Below the pieces are notes generated by a model. That model ran no database searches. It saw only the letters and a program-made list of their open reading frames with translations, and was not told the origin of the DNA. Below, piece by piece: positions 2,800 to 49,532 of a stretch of 64,000 nt of DNA. Source of the stretch: a virus; the IMG/VR virus record IMGVR_UViG_3300042566_001780, positions 227,688-291,687 of that record. One strand, written 5' to 3'. Each line of letters begins with the position of its first letter. Position 1 is the stretch's first letter. Made by a program: the position numbers and the translations under genes.

Positions 2800-3113
2800 G
2801 CTGGATCAGGATATCGTTCTTTAATTTCCTGAATTTTATCTAACCACTCTTGCATTGTGGCTTCACCTCTTTGTGCCTTAAAAAATAAGGGATCGGCTTC
2901 TTTTTTATAAGCATGAAATCTTAATGCGTCTATTTGTTCTGACGTTTTAACAGGCGCATAATATACCCAAGAGCTATTTTCCCACTCATATCCTTCACCC
3001 GGTTTTAGCGGGACTTCAATATATCCACTTGGATATGATGCTAATATTTCAGCAGAAGGTTGATTTGTCGTCTGCCAATAGCCTATACTAGGATGATAAA
3101 AACCTTTTTCCAT
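2796..3113 (-). CDS. Tail fibre assembly/cap-like small protein
   Basis: This 105-aa protein has an N-terminal part rich in aromatic residues (GYIEVPLKPGEGYEWENSSW) like phage tail-fibre assembly proteins, and a C-terminal helical part (EADPLFFKAQRGEATMQEW) that recurs at the ends of small fibre-associated proteins of myoviruses. It lies 18 bases downstream of the fibre gene on the same strand and is probably cotranscribed with it. A chaperone or fibre-tip accessory role is inferred from this context. No enzyme motif is present. Confidence 0.6.
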   Translation of the reverse strand: MEKGFYHPSIGYWQTTNQPSAEILASYPSGYIEVPLKPGEGYEWENSSWVYYAPVKTSEQIDALRFHAYKKEADPLFFKAQRGEATMQEWLDKIQEIKERYPDPA

Positions 3114-42714: not shown

Positions 42715-42967
42715 TTGCCTGCATATTCTTCAGGTTGGCAGATCTTTTGTGGCACTCAAAGATAGTGCTTCTGCAAATCGCTATATAGACCATTATGGAC
42801 TGTCAAAACAAGCAGTCCATCTTGGATGCAAAGAAGTCCATCAATCCTACATTGACATTTTTGAAAAGTGTAAAGTTGATAGAATTGGCTTTGAGCATCT
42901 AGGTCTTTTGCTGCAACCCTCATTTACACCGTTTTTCAAACATGTCCCAACAACCAAAAGTAACTGA
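42701..42967 (+). CDS. Small phage protein, 88 aa
   Basis: The product from ATG 42701 (MSQPNCLHILQVGRSFVALK) has several Cys and His but no recognised family. It overlaps the topoisomerase gene start by 26 bases, so it may help its translation. Confidence 0.5.
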   Translation: MSQPNCLHILQVGRSFVALKDSASANRYIDHYGLSKQAVHLGCKEVHQSYIDIFEKCKVDRIGFEHLGLLLQPSFTPFFKHVPTTKSN

Positions 42968-44714
42968 CTACGCCGTTCTTGATGAGATTGAACACGTACG
43001 CCGTCGTACTGGCATGTACGCGGGTTCTACTGAACTGCAAACAGCTTCGGACTGGATTTATGATCCTAATCTAAAGAAGATGGTCAAGAAGCAGGTGAGT
43101 TACATTCCTGCTCTTATCAAAATTTTCTCAGAAATTCTCGATAATGCAATCGATGAACACCGTCGTGCTCCAAACGTGCTTGATGCTATTCGGGTAGATT
43201 TCACTGCAGAAGGCATTATCACAATCACTGATAATGGTCGCGGTATTCCAGTTGAAGTCCATCCGCAAACTGGAAAATATATTGCAGAAACTGTGTTCAC
43301 GACGCTGCGTGCAGGTTCTAACTTTGACGATACAAAAGATCAACAACTTGTTGGCACCAATGGCGTTGGTAGTACACTGACATCTATCTTGTCTACCATG
43401 TTTCGCATCGAATCATGTGATGGCAAGAAGGTGTACACGCAAGAATTTAGAAATGGTCTTCGGGAGCGTGATGAACCGAAGATCAAATCTGACAACAAGA
43501 ATCGTACGAAAATTACATTCAAGCCAGATTACGAATTCTTCAAGTTGAAAGGTTTGGACGCCGATCATGCAATGAAGATGACCAAGAAGATTGCAGATGC
43601 CGCTGCATGTAACCCGGGTGTAAAGTTCTACATTAACGGTGATCGAATTGCTGTTAAGGATTTTGGTGACTACATTTCACTATACACTGATGAGTTTGTG
43701 TATGACGATACTCCTGATTGGAAGGTTGGCATCTCTCATTCTGATGGATTTGAGCAAATTAGCTTTGTCAACTCGGTTGAAACATACCAAGGTGGTACAC
43801 ATGTAGCATACGTAATGGATCAAATTGTTGAAGCCATTCGAGCATATATCAAGAAAAAACATAAGGTAGAAGTAAAGCCTGCTGACATCCGCAATCATAT
43901 GCGGGTGTATATTAGTGCCAACGTGAATCGGCCTAAGTTTTCTTCTCAAACAAAAGAGAATATGATTTCTCAATATGGAACTTACAAGACTTCTTGGGAA
44001 GTTCCTGATAAGATGATTCAGAAGCTGCTGAAGTCGCCAATTATTCAATCTGTGCTTGATTGGGTAGAAGCGAAGCAGAAAGCTGCAGAACTTGCAGAAT
44101 TGCGTAAACTCAACAAAGAAGCGGCAAAAGCAAATCCGCGTCGAGTTGAAAAGTTTGATGACGCCATTGAAAAAGTCAATAGGCACCAGTGCCAGATTTT
44201 TTTTACGGAGGGGGACTGCCTTTTTGAGGACACTTTGATTTATTCTCAAGGCAATGGGAATATTAAAATTAAAGATTTGCAAATAGGTGATTTTGTCCTA
44301 ACTCACCAAAACAATTTCAAACAAATAGTTAACAAAACTACTAAGTTAAAAGAGTGTATAAAATTTTGTCTGGAGGATAATAAAATTTTAATTTGTTCAA
44401 AAGAACATAAAATGTTATGTTATTCTAGAAATGACAAATGTTTTGGCTGGGCAACAGCTGAATACATAGCAAATAATCTAGATTCTTTCTATTTGGTAGA
44501 AAATGAGATAATTTCCAAAAGATGCATGGGGGACGAGCTAATAAGTAAGAACCTCCATGATAACGAATTTATTTTAGAATTTGGCAGTGGCCAAACATGG
44601 GAATCTTCACCCAACCACAGGTGGATGGTTTATCAATTAAAAACAAATAGTTTTGTAGTAGTGTCTACAGAAGATATGGAACTTGGCGATATGTTGTTAA
44701 TGAGTATGTCATAA
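42942..44714 (+). CDS. DNA topoisomerase II large subunit, N-part fused to split-intein N-half
   Basis: The 590-aa product has the GHKL ATPase (E64, N68 in FSEILDNAIDE; DNGRGIP at 97-103; GTNGVG at 138-143), the transducer domain, and stops being topoisomerase at residue 425 in FFTEGD. This is the first half of the TOPRIM EGDSA motif. C426 then opens an intein (CLFEDTLIYS, IKIKDLQIGDFVLTH as block A; ILICSKEHKMLCY as block B). The remaining 165 residues are all intein-like. The enzyme corresponds to T4 gp39. Trans-splicing with the product of 45888-46331 would restore EGDSA. Confidence 0.9.
   Translation: MSQQPKVTDYAVLDEIEHVRRRTGMYAGSTELQTASDWIYDPNLKKMVKKQVSYIPALIKIFSEILDNAIDEHRRAPNVLDAIRVDFTAEGIITITDNGRGIPVEVHPQTGKYIAETVFTTLRAGSNFDDTKDQQLVGTNGVGSTLTSILSTMFRIESCDGKKVYTQEFRNGLRERDEPKIKSDNKNRTKITFKPDYEFFKLKGLDADHAMKMTKKIADAAACNPGVKFYINGDRIAVKDFGDYISLYTDEFVYDDTPDWKVGISHSDGFEQISFVNSVETYQGGTHVAYVMDQIVEAIRAYIKKKHKVEVKPADIRNHMRVYISANVNRPKFSSQTKENMISQYGTYKTSWEVPDKMIQKLLKSPIIQSVLDWVEAKQKAAELAELRKLNKEAAKANPRRVEKFDDAIEKVNRHQCQIFFTEGDCLFEDTLIYSQGNGNIKIKDLQIGDFVLTHQNNFKQIVNKTTKLKECIKFCLEDNKILICSKEHKMLCYSRNDKCFGWATAEYIANNLDSFYLVENEIISKRCMGDELISKNLHDNEFILEFGSGQTWESSPNHRWMVYQLKTNSFVVVSTEDMELGDMLLMSMS
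44217..44711 (+). other. Split intein N-fragment (IntN)
   Basis: Codons 426-590 of the large-subunit N-part. C426 is the splice nucleophile and follows EGD. Block A (IKDLQIGDFVL) and a block-B-like KEHKMLCYSR are present; a second block-B-like SSPNHRWMVY lies near the end. At 165 residues it is longer than most known IntN pieces, so it may keep remnants of a linker domain. Confidence 0.85.
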
Positions 44715-44722
44715 AAATAGCG

Positions 44723-44779
44723 CATTTTTTGTCTCCTTCTATAAATATGAATATATTTTACTGAAGGAGACAAAAAATG
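44723..44779 (+). promoter_or_regulatory. RBS-masking hairpin with late promoter in loop
   Basis: Perfect 17-base arms CATTTTTTGTCTCCTTC (44723-44739) and GAAGGAGACAAAAAATG (44763-44779) enclose a 23-base loop. The right arm holds the GGAG ribosome site and the ATG of the endonuclease gene. The loop starts with TATAAATA (44740-44747), the T4 late promoter core. Read-through RNA would hide the start; RNA begun in the loop would expose it, as known for the T4 I-TevI gene. Confidence 0.85.
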
Positions 44780-45887: not shown

Positions 45888-46040
45888 ATGTTTGAGAAAC
45901 TTCTGGATGATTTTGAAACTATTGGGAAAAGATTGGTCAAAATTAATGCTGTAGACTTTGCAGGTCTTGCCAATACAGTTGATATTGAGGTTGAAGATGA
46001 TAATTCATTTACCCTATCAAACGGCCTCATTTCTCATAAT
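45888..46040 (+). other. Split intein C-fragment (IntC)
   Basis: Codons 1-51: block F-like VDIEVEDDNSF and the terminal ISHN with penultimate His50 and N51, followed by Ser as first extein residue. It has the size and motifs of known phage IntC pieces (about 35-50 aa). Confidence 0.85.
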
Positions 46041-46331
46041 TCTGCCCGCTCTTCCATTCAGGCTGCTCGCGGTAAAAACAAGTTTATTGGATCTTTTTCT
46101 CTTCGGGGCAAGCCGCTTAATGTATATGATGCCGAAATTAAGGATGTGATTGCAAATGCTGAATTTGCAAACATGCTTGCTGTTACAGGATTGCAACTTG
46201 GAGAAAAAGTTGAAGCTGAGTCTGATGGAAATTGGCACATCATTGAAATTGACGGTAAAGACGTATTGGTTAATGAAAATGATTTTATTAACATTAACGG
46301 TGATCTTATTAAGGTTAAAAATTTGATCTAG
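45888..46331 (+). CDS. Split-intein C-half fused to topoisomerase TOPRIM middle part
   Basis: The 147-aa product starts with a 51-residue IntC: VDIEVEDDNSFTLSNGLI (block F) and SHN (block G, N51). S52 is the +1 residue, and the extein continues SARSSIQAARGKNKFIGSFS, LRGKPLNV and NMLAVTGLQLGEKV as in T4 gp39 and GyrB. Joining to EGD of the N-part gives EGDSA. The last 37 residues (GNWHIIEIDGKDVLVNENDF onward) have no place in a continuous topoisomerase and may be a tail gained when the second cassette split the gene. No promoter seen. Confidence 0.85.
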   Translation: MFEKLLDDFETIGKRLVKINAVDFAGLANTVDIEVEDDNSFTLSNGLISHNSARSSIQAARGKNKFIGSFSLRGKPLNVYDAEIKDVIANAEFANMLAVTGLQLGEKVEAESDGNWHIIEIDGKDVLVNENDFININGDLIKVKNLI

Positions 46332-46346
46332 ACTTTGACGGTTATT

Positions 46347-46354
46347 GCTAAATA
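46347..46354 (+). promoter_or_regulatory. Late-type promoter (GCTAAATA) for second endonuclease gene
   Basis: ATTGCTAAATACATTTTTG lies 19 bases before ATG 46374 and just after the stop of the IntC-topoisomerase piece; an AAAGGA ribosome site follows. Confidence 0.6.
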
Positions 46355-46373: not shown

Positions 46374-47423
46374 ATGAAATGTACTTTATGCAATAATGAA
46401 ATACCAAGCATCTATAAAAATAGAATTGCATGTTGTATTAGTCCGTGTGAGTCATTTTTCATAAAACCAAGAACAATATTATGGAAAATAAAAGTATTGG
46501 GCTTCAATGAACAAAAAGTCCTAGATGAAAACCGTAAAAGAACGCAAAAAGCTGGAAATACGAGAAAATCATTGGGGCTTTCTAAAGGTGCAAATAATCC
46601 AAATAGCAAACAATATTTGTTAAATCTAGGTAAGAGTGAAGATGAAATAGCACAATTTCATAAATCTACTGCCAAAAAAATGGTGGATACAAAAATAAAA
46701 GATGACTTTTATAAGGTAAAATCTAATAATCCATATTCTTATGAATACTGGATATCTCGCGGATATTCAAATGAAGAAGCTAAAAATAAAATAAGATCTA
46801 AAAATCATAATTGTGCCGAATACTGGATATCTCGCGGATATTCAAATGAAGAAGCTAAAAAACTAAGTTCAGAAAGTGCTGATACTAATTCATTAAAAGC
46901 AAAAATCAAAAGACATAAAAATGAAGGTCATAAAAAATATATGGAAACAAAAAATAAAATGTCTGGTAGTTGGAATCCAAAATCTGCAAATAGTGTTAGT
47001 TTTTCATCTTCACAATCAGCAAATGCCTTTTTTAAGAAAATATATAAATTTGTTAGGCGGTTGGGTTTCACTAGACATGAGATGACGTTTAAATTAAATT
47101 TCGGTAAAGAATTTTGGATTAAAAAAGATAAAAAAATTTATTTTTATGATTTTGTTTTGCACCCCCTAAGATTGATAGTAGAATTCAACGGCGAACATGT
47201 TCATGTTGATCCTGGTTTATCTTTAGAAGAAAAATTAAAATGGAAACACGCGTTTTCTAAAATGGATGCTTTTAGTATTGAAGAATATGATAAGCAAAAA
47301 AATATAGCAGCTGCTGCTAGAGGGTATAAAATAATTTATGTCTGGTATAAAGATCAGGAATCTGGATTTAATTCTATTGTTGATTTTTTAAAGGAAAAAT
47401 ATAATCATGGTACAAAAGATTAA
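46374..47423 (+). CDS. Vsr-like homing endonuclease
   Basis: The 349-aa protein has an N-terminal Cys motif (MKCTLCNNEI), two copies of EYWISRGYSNEEAK (a repeat typical of phage homing endonucleases), and a C-terminal nuclease core with KIYFYDFVLHPLRLIVEFNG followed by EHVHVDP. The D...EFNGxxxH pattern is that of the Vsr-related (EDxHD-type) homing endonucleases. ATG 46374 is chosen over a longer frame because of the late promoter and AAAGGA. Its 3' end overlaps the third topoisomerase piece by 17 bases, just as an endonuclease gene abuts gene 60 in T4. Confidence 0.8.
   Translation: MKCTLCNNEIPSIYKNRIACCISPCESFFIKPRTILWKIKVLGFNEQKVLDENRKRTQKAGNTRKSLGLSKGANNPNSKQYLLNLGKSEDEIAQFHKSTAKKMVDTKIKDDFYKVKSNNPYSYEYWISRGYSNEEAKNKIRSKNHNCAEYWISRGYSNEEAKKLSSESADTNSLKAKIKRHKNEGHKKYMETKNKMSGSWNPKSANSVSFSSSQSANAFFKKIYKFVRRLGFTRHEMTFKLNFGKEFWIKKDKKIYFYDFVLHPLRLIVEFNGEHVHVDPGLSLEEKLKWKHAFSKMDAFSIEEYDKQKNIAAAARGYKIIYVWYKDQESGFNSIVDFLKEKYNHGTKD
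46743..46861 (+). repeat. 44-bp exact direct repeat inside endonuclease gene
   Basis: Identical 44-base segments at 46743-46786 and 46818-46861, 75 bases apart, encode the two EYWISRGYSNEEAK units. Exact identity at DNA level points to a recent in-frame duplication. Confidence 0.85.
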
Positions 47424-47990
47424 AGTTAAAGCAAAAAATGTTAAGCCAACTCCCGATCAACTGCGAACTTATGTTCAGCAACAAGGACGTTTGACGACTC
47501 GAAATACGAATTTGCGTTTTGGTAAACTGATTGTGCTATCAGACCAAGACCTTGATGGATAGCTTCGGCTATCCATATTACATACACATTTAAAGAGTTA
47601 TTTGGATTTCATGTTTCTTCACTGCTGCTTTCCTTTTGGGCGAAGTACTGGCCAGAGTTGTTCAAACTCGGCATGGTATATCGGATGAACACTCCGCTTT
47701 ATATTGTCAAAACCAATAAGGGCGAACTTTTAGAATTCTTCACTGAAGAAGATTATGAGCGCTGGGCAGCAAAGGGTATCAAACATAAAGCTGACTATTA
47801 CAAAGGTCTTGGCGGTTTTGATACGGAAACTTTTGAGCGATTTATTGAGAATCTTGATAAGTATCTTGTTAAAATTACAGAGCTTGAAGCCCAAGACCTT
47901 GCAAAAATTGAGCTAGCTTTCTCTAACAAAGAGCAAGATGCTCGCAAAGAGTGGCTTGAGGATATTCGATACTTTGAAATTGAAGATTGA
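47407..47990 (+). CDS. Topoisomerase II large subunit C-part, read through a ribosomal bypass
   Basis: ATG 47407 encodes 51 residues ending NLRFGKLIVLSDQDLDG at GGA 47557-47559, followed at once by TAG. The required continuation of TOPRIM, FHVSSLLLSFWAKYWPELF, starts at 47607 after a 47-base gap, in a different frame. Together they give 178 aa (T4 gp60 is 160). The gap has the T4 gene 60 hop signals (see separate entry). The DxDxDG metal site is complete, so only bypassing yields an active subunit. The start follows AAAGGA and overlaps the endonuclease gene. Confidence 0.9.
47557..47606 (+). other. Translational bypass element, T4 gene 60 type
   Basis: Take-off GGA (47557-47559), stop TAG, hairpin GGATAGC-TTCG-GCTATCC (7-bp stem with UUCG loop, 47557-47574), an internal GAG (47594-47596) and landing GGA (47604-47606). 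Translation resumes at TTT 47607. The gap after take-off is 47 bases; in T4 it is 50, with the same take-off, stop, UUCG hairpin, GAG and landing signals. Upstream codons encode a basic nascent peptide (QKIKVKAKNVK), also as in T4. Confidence 0.9.
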
Positions 47991-49497: not shown

Positions 49498-49532
49498 TCT
49501 CCAGTTTTTTCTGCGCCAGAAAAAACTGGAGA
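49498..49532. terminator. Perfect 16-bp hairpin after topoisomerase operon
   Basis: Arms TCTCCAGTTTTTTCTG and CAGAAAAAACTGGAGA are complementary over 16 bases with a CGC loop. The T-run lies in the stem, so it is unusual for an intrinsic terminator and could instead be an RNA processing site. A relative lies at 52853-52871. Confidence 0.55.

Follow-up and report, generated by a model that had tools for sequence, protein, structure and literature searches.

Endonuclease A and the Split-Intein Topoisomerase Gene

The window analyzed here is a stretch of 64,000 nucleotides, positions 227,688-291,687 in the record of an uncultured virus with a length of 291,687 bp. Homologues of gp23, gp20, gp21, gp17, gp18, gp15, gp43, gp41, gp44, gp46, and uvsW were found, and the source virus is a T4-like jumbo phage. 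In the window, the gene for the large subunit of topoisomerase II is interrupted by two endonuclease genes of the same family, here called A and B (Table 1). The intein halves around endonuclease A have the ends EGD/CLFEDT... and ...LISHN/SARSS (slashes mark the splice boundaries), i.e., Cys1 and HN followed by Ser, and the topoisomerase PHROG profile stops at column 445 upstream and picks up at column 445 downstream. Since the exteins abut at this column and an intein half is present on either side, endonuclease A is placed in the gap of a split-intein (fractured) gene, in agreement with the preliminary description of this DNA, which had attached the endonuclease to a split intein. As read from the sequence, the order is extein-IntN, endonuclease, IntC-extein, with trans-splicing as a prediction.

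Table 1. Features of the endonuclease A locus and its surroundings (window coordinates).
Feature	Position	Strand	Remarks
Topoisomerase II large subunit, N-terminal part, with intein N half	42942..44714	+	Intein from Cys codon 44217
Hairpin 5' arm	44723..44739	+	CATTTTTTGTCTCCTTC; only in read-through RNA; complements 44763-44779, 17/17 bp
Hairpin loop, 23 nt	44740..44762	+	Opens with TATAAATA (44740-44747)
Late-promoter motif TATAAATA	44740..44747	+	Opens the loop; predicted RNA start ~44753 by T4 spacing
Possible operator	44751..44771	+	Agrees at 16 of 21 positions with 44196-44216, the sequence immediately 5' of the intein insertion point
Hairpin 3' arm	44763..44779	+	GAAGGAGACAAAAAATG; holds GGAG 44766-44769 and ATG 44777-44779
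Endonuclease A, 369 aa	44777..45886	+	Probably related to the I-Bth0305I (EDxHD / Vsr-like) family
Intein C half with next topoisomerase large-subunit piece	45888..46331	+	C half runs to ...LISHN (46040)
Late-promoter motif CTAAATA within TTGCTAAATAC	46348..46354	+	26 nt before endonuclease B; PWM 12.9 bits; without masking hairpin
Endonuclease B, same family as A	46374..47423	+	Interrupts the topoisomerase gene at another point

Endonuclease A gave no direct match to Pfam, its PHROG is common to two more endonucleases of the same genome, and its relatives match REase_MTES_1575 and DUF559, which are Vsr-like restriction folds. The best PDB fold match of its modelled C-terminal domain (mean pLDDT 64.7, moderate confidence) was 3r3p, the catalytic domain of I-Bth0305I, with a probability of 0.92 but a weak E-value of 0.22; the match of the endonuclease family profile to the same structure was likewise weak (E = 0.46). 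Alignment of endonuclease A with 25 relatives revealed conserved D..E..G positions (D310, E321, and G324 in A), while the near-invariant His that follows E..G in the family alignment was not found in A, a strongly diverged member. Lacking this residue, endonuclease A may be inactive or altered in its chemistry.

Endonuclease B splits the topoisomerase gene just before a translational bypass of the T4 gene 60 type (47557-47606, in the part of the same gene at 47407-47990). There, the open reading frame ends with ...SDQDLDG at GGA-TAG. The hairpin GGATAGCTTCGGCTATCC comes next, then a second GGA (47604-47606), and downstream of this GGA the Toprim domain is resumed in a different frame (FHVSSLLLSFWAKYWPELFKLGMVY). 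The gap measures 47 nt as compared to 50 in T4 gene 60 and interrupts the protein at the equivalent position; no copies of the bypass were detected by the queries made against viral_contigs and the phage collection. The combination of endonuclease B and bypass recalls the T4 mobA and bypass cassette.

A Hairpin Over the Start Site of Endonuclease A

Upstream of and into the endonuclease A gene, a perfect 17-bp inverted repeat encloses a 23-nt loop, and both the GGAG and the ATG lie entirely inside its 3' arm, which places a stable stem over the Shine-Dalgarno sequence and the start codon. The arms and the motif at the beginning of the loop were found exactly as the preliminary description had them. 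Folding of the RNA (101 nt) yielded -30.2 kcal/mol (z = -7.1), and none of 200 shuffles was equally stable. Perfect repeats of at least 15 bp with a loop of at most 45 nt occurred twice in the window, namely at endonuclease A and, in terminator-like form, near 49498, as compared to none in 20 dinucleotide shuffles. In the whole record the endonuclease A hairpin is present in a single copy, and among open reading frames of at least 50 aa with a Shine-Dalgarno sequence its stem is the longest over any start site, stems of at least 11 bp being seen at only five. Thus, by every measure applied, a 17-bp stem over the start site is far beyond chance. Rfam matches of the hairpin were sub-threshold microRNA models reflecting merely a long hairpin and were discarded. 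The second long repeat (49498-49531; CTCCAGTTTTTTCTG / CAGAAAAAACTGGAG) is flanked by the genes for the topoisomerase medium subunit and for a DnaJ-like protein and is perhaps a terminator.

Late Promoter Motif and Cost of Opening the Start Site

The virus possesses a homologue of the late sigma factor gp55 (phrog_234, E = 8e-31). On its own, TATAAATA was not significant in the window (3 occurrences vs. 2.4 expected) and too common to be informative; for this reason, leader motifs were sought without prior assumption. De novo search of the whole record detected CTAAATAG in 26 gene leaders (1.6 expected) and GCTAAATA in 22 (1.4 expected), while TATAAATA was significant by its position, with 7 leaders vs. 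0.6 expected. These motifs were strand-biased and mostly located 26-45 nt before the ATG; GCTAAATAG is the preferred form and TATAAATA a minor one. The weight matrix (PWM) of the leader motif, the training set of which left out the hairpin loci, reads tngCTAAATAG. Taken together, leader motifs and PWM point to a phage with T4-type late promoters of shifted preferred sequence. The motif at endonuclease A, TATAAATAT, is a weak variant of GCTAAATAG, scoring 5.9 bits, a value reached by 60 of 351 leaders, whereas the promoter motifs in the hairpins of a uvsX endonuclease and a GIY-YIG endonuclease of the same genome score 12.2 bits each. Hence, the late promoter previously claimed for the loop agrees with the gp55-type sigma factor and the T4-type late promoters of this virus, but its sequence is weaker than the motif that the virus prefers.

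The T4-type motif at endonuclease A is positioned such that the 5' arm would be missing from late RNA. In line with this, opening of the region from Shine-Dalgarno sequence to ATG was computed to cost 22.6 kcal/mol for read-through RNA but 3.5 kcal/mol for late RNA, which corroborates the placement of the promoter proposed earlier. Similar values were computed for the uvsX endonuclease (17.6 to 2.4 kcal/mol) and the GIY-YIG endonuclease (18.3 to 2.1 kcal/mol), and opening of the unmasked start site of endonuclease B, used for comparison, costs only 2.1 kcal/mol.

Further Start-Site Hairpins of the Same Genome

Three of the five start-site hairpins of at least 11 bp in the record are found on endonuclease genes. 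All three have TATAAATA in the loop or the 5' arm, and their stem sequences are unrelated to one another. Besides endonuclease A, these concern the endonuclease of the split-intein uvsX gene (intein ends GPSG/CLPADEK... and HN/SGKS; hairpin ACGCTCCTATAAATA-GCT-TATTTATAGGAGCGT) and a GIY-YIG endonuclease flanked by tRNA genes (hairpin CATAATTGTTCTCC-TATAAATAGAGTATA-AGGAGAACAATTATG), which is a positional analogue of T4 segB. At the locus that holds the latter (L011, 3917-3953), a 204-aa gene without assigned function carries a 13-bp hairpin before its ATG, the 5' arm of which is overlapped by TATAAATA; here, masking amounts to 15.5 kcal/mol and, in late RNA, to 4.3 kcal/mol. By contrast to these genes, no masking start-site hairpin was seen on the endonuclease that lies in the split intein of the late gene terL.

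Other features of this genome concern the inteins and a further endonuclease-like gene. The uvsX split intein (L008, 1300-4400) has an N half of only ~29 aa. The terL split intein with its nested endonuclease (L007, 4000-6700) has the ends GK/CFFG... and ...HN/TT, and terL seems to have a second intein start further on (AQELN/CASYDTLL). A long GIY-YIG-like open reading frame (L006, 13439-15022, minus strand) lies just after gp23, the position that segD occupies in T4.

Relatives in Other Phages

Direct searches for relatives of endonuclease A and of the downstream intein part returned little, and the family was opened up via the uvsX endonuclease copy and an alignment. The alignment search retrieved 80 viral loci, nearly all of them endonucleases inside split inteins, which sit at the Walker A motif of phage ATPases. 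Start-site hairpins with a score of at least 13 were present at 5 of 65 relatives as compared to 1 of 367 flanking open reading frames (Fisher p = 3.6e-4). Sorted by host gene, strong hairpins were found for uvsX (3/5), AAA/gp44 (2/8), gp41 (1/5), and topoisomerase (1/1), and no strong masking hairpin was detected among the intein-gap endonucleases of terL (0/28) and gp46/47 (0/15); one uvsX endonuclease (L096) also showed none. The difference between early-type genes and terL (7/34 vs. 0/28, p = 0.011) weakens to 4/31 (p = 0.07) once the two copies of the own genome and the one of the Vibrio phage are excluded.

The latter copy, VmeM32_00088, is the endonuclease in the split-intein gp41 of the cultured Vibrio phage vB_VmeM-32 (Straboviridae). 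A 14-bp stem covers its Shine-Dalgarno sequence, the 5' arm runs into TCTAAATAA, and the opening cost drops from 19.1 to 5.0 kcal/mol. In this phage, TATAAATA was found in 13 leaders vs. 0.7 expected and CTAAATAA in 9 leaders and never on the opposite strand. Its gp55 gene (L219, ~2980-3024) has a 17-bp hairpin over the leader with a TATAAT-like loop sequence. In an uncultured phage (L101), the endonuclease of split-intein uvsX carries an 11-bp stem with GATTAAATA, the leader motif of that contig, in the loop, and the same design is probably present there. At another locus (L166), a leader motif overlaps the 5' arm of the hairpin. Two further loci, L105 and L122, have strong hairpins, but the promoter motif was not supported, and they were therefore left out as promoter-containing hairpins; L105 and LR756500 share one hairpin, which was counted once. 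A scan of the whole collection with the pattern TCTCCTATAAATAN{2,32}GGAGA returned 77 stretches, mostly apparent chance, and this set was not used as proof; it contains a GIY-YIG-like gene (L040, 10 bp) and an HNH-like gene (L058, 7 bp) that fit the hairpin model.

We consider the chances evenly balanced that the leader with a late promoter in a hairpin is a convergent regulatory module that split-intein endonucleases of T4-like and jumbo phages have gained afresh each time, with other sequences and other promoter motifs, and kept in early genes (topoisomerase, uvsX, gp41, AAA ATPase) but not in the late gene terL.

Discussion

We propose, with a probability of about 85%, that the hairpin together with the promoter in its loop works as a switch by which translation of a selfish homing endonuclease depends on where transcription starts. 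Read-through RNA from early or middle topoisomerase promoters would have both arms and fold over the Shine-Dalgarno sequence and the ATG, giving topoisomerase-intein halves but little endonuclease A; the early timing of the topoisomerase gene is assumed here from T4. Once a gp55-type sigma factor is active, RNA polymerase would start within the loop, the RNA would lack the 5' arm, and the open start site would allow endonuclease A to be made. With the start site inside the hairpin and a late promoter in its loop, translation of endonuclease A is probably late only. At that time, replicated DNA would be on hand for homing, and leaking cleavage or translation would be harmless to the essential early gene. 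The transcription start in the loop, its timing, the block of translation, and the homing activity of endonuclease A are inferred from sequence features; the interpretation given in the preliminary description is well supported by comparative sequence evidence. Counting against the switch are the relatives that have no hairpin, the weak motif of 5.9 bits, and the hairpins of L105 and L122 with no clear promoter motif.

The weak motif and the latter two hairpins would also fit if the hairpin served as constitutive damping of a toxic enzyme and TATAAATA in the loop were no working promoter. We regard this as unlikely, given that all three endonuclease hairpins of the genome have TATAAATA in the loop or 5' arm, spaced such that the 5' arm would be lost, and that a 17-bp stem with masking of 22.6 kcal/mol would nearly abolish expression. 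A long stable stem between two genes of the same strand could suggest transcription termination or processing of the RNase III type; however, the 3' arm continues into coding sequence, a T run is missing on either strand, the stem ends exactly with the ATG, and the placement over Shine-Dalgarno sequence and ATG recurs with unrelated sequences, making this hardly tenable. Translational coupling, in which ribosomes finishing the topoisomerase-intein N half would unfold the hairpin irrespective of promoter choice, might be suspected from the stop codon just 8 nt upstream of the 5' arm. From what is generally known of ribosome footprints, a terminating ribosome reaches only the base of the 5' arm, leaving most of the 17-bp stem in place, and promoter choice is favored by a start site that is masked and has a promoter of its own within the loop, so that coupling seems very improbable.

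The leader might also, or mainly, act at the DNA level. Compatible with the switch, endonuclease A would then bind an operator overlapping promoter and hairpin and repress its own late transcription, as does I-TevI, the operator of which matches its homing site at 15 of 20 positions (PMC2988022). The possible homing-site-like operator at endonuclease A (Table 1) parallels this match, and an equally good one was found in none of 353 other gene leaders, in none of 500 shuffles, and in 0.2% of windows. On the other hand, the operator was not seen at seven more loci (uvsX endonuclease C, terL endonuclease D, L096, L101, L105, L122, and L166), the testing of eight loci leaves its significance modest, and both compared sequences contain a GGAG-like purine run. 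Thus, the match is suggestive for endonuclease A alone, and we regard operator control of this leader as a tentative, rather doubtful reading.

The switch proposed here follows a logic that has been described for I-TevI, I-TevII, I-TevIII, SegB, Aeh1 MobE, e, soc, and 49 (PMC2988022; PMC3014915), and the same scan recovered the T4 soc and I-TevII leaders as a control. Since the logic is that of T4 I-TevI, SegB, and Aeh1 MobE, the mechanism is already known; the earlier reference to I-TevI was correct but too narrow, as I-TevII, I-TevIII, SegB, and MobE belong here as well. As in I-TevI, ribosome-binding site and start of endonuclease A are sequestered in the predicted read-through RNA, a T4-type late promoter is placed so that late RNA would shed the 5' arm, and the homing endonuclease lies within a split host gene. 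Unlike I-TevI, I-TevII, and I-TevIII, which are GIY-YIG or HNH enzymes of group I introns, endonuclease A is probably I-Bth0305I-like and belongs to a split intein, and its hairpin is of unrelated sequence, as had been stated with respect to I-TevI, and has a longer perfect stem. Aeh1 mobE and T4 segB share with it a location outside introns and a hairpin over the ribosome-binding site combined with a late promoter, and mobE likewise splits an essential gene (nrdA), but these endonucleases are of the HNH and GIY-YIG types. We know of no intein that joins the split NrdA of Aeh1. The leaders of T4 e, soc, and 49 are likewise masked early and open late (PMC3014915), although their products are not homing endonucleases (49 being endonuclease VII).

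The arrangement of the topoisomerase gene, cut in two with intein halves and with endonuclease A in the gap, resembles that of fractured genes, in which each half of a host gene carries an intein half and an endonuclease gene lies between them (Dassa et al., 2009, as cited in PMC6892783 and PMC10448857). In the literature searched, which included these two articles, no masking hairpin or late promoter was described on split-intein endonucleases, and split inteins, homing endonucleases, and late promoters were brought together by none of the papers. The new part would therefore be the repeated, independent use of this logic by I-Bth0305I-like endonucleases of split-intein genes, a description of which was not found in that literature.

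If true, selfish endonucleases would have repeatedly reached one solution to living in an essential early gene without being expressed together with it. This would extend the rule known from T4 introns to split-intein genes, the arrangement that supplies inteins widely used in protein engineering, and Vibrio phage vB_VmeM-32, which is cultured and has a known host, would allow a direct test. Moreover, a start-site-dependent hairpin would offer a simple plan for a gene switch restricted to the late phase.
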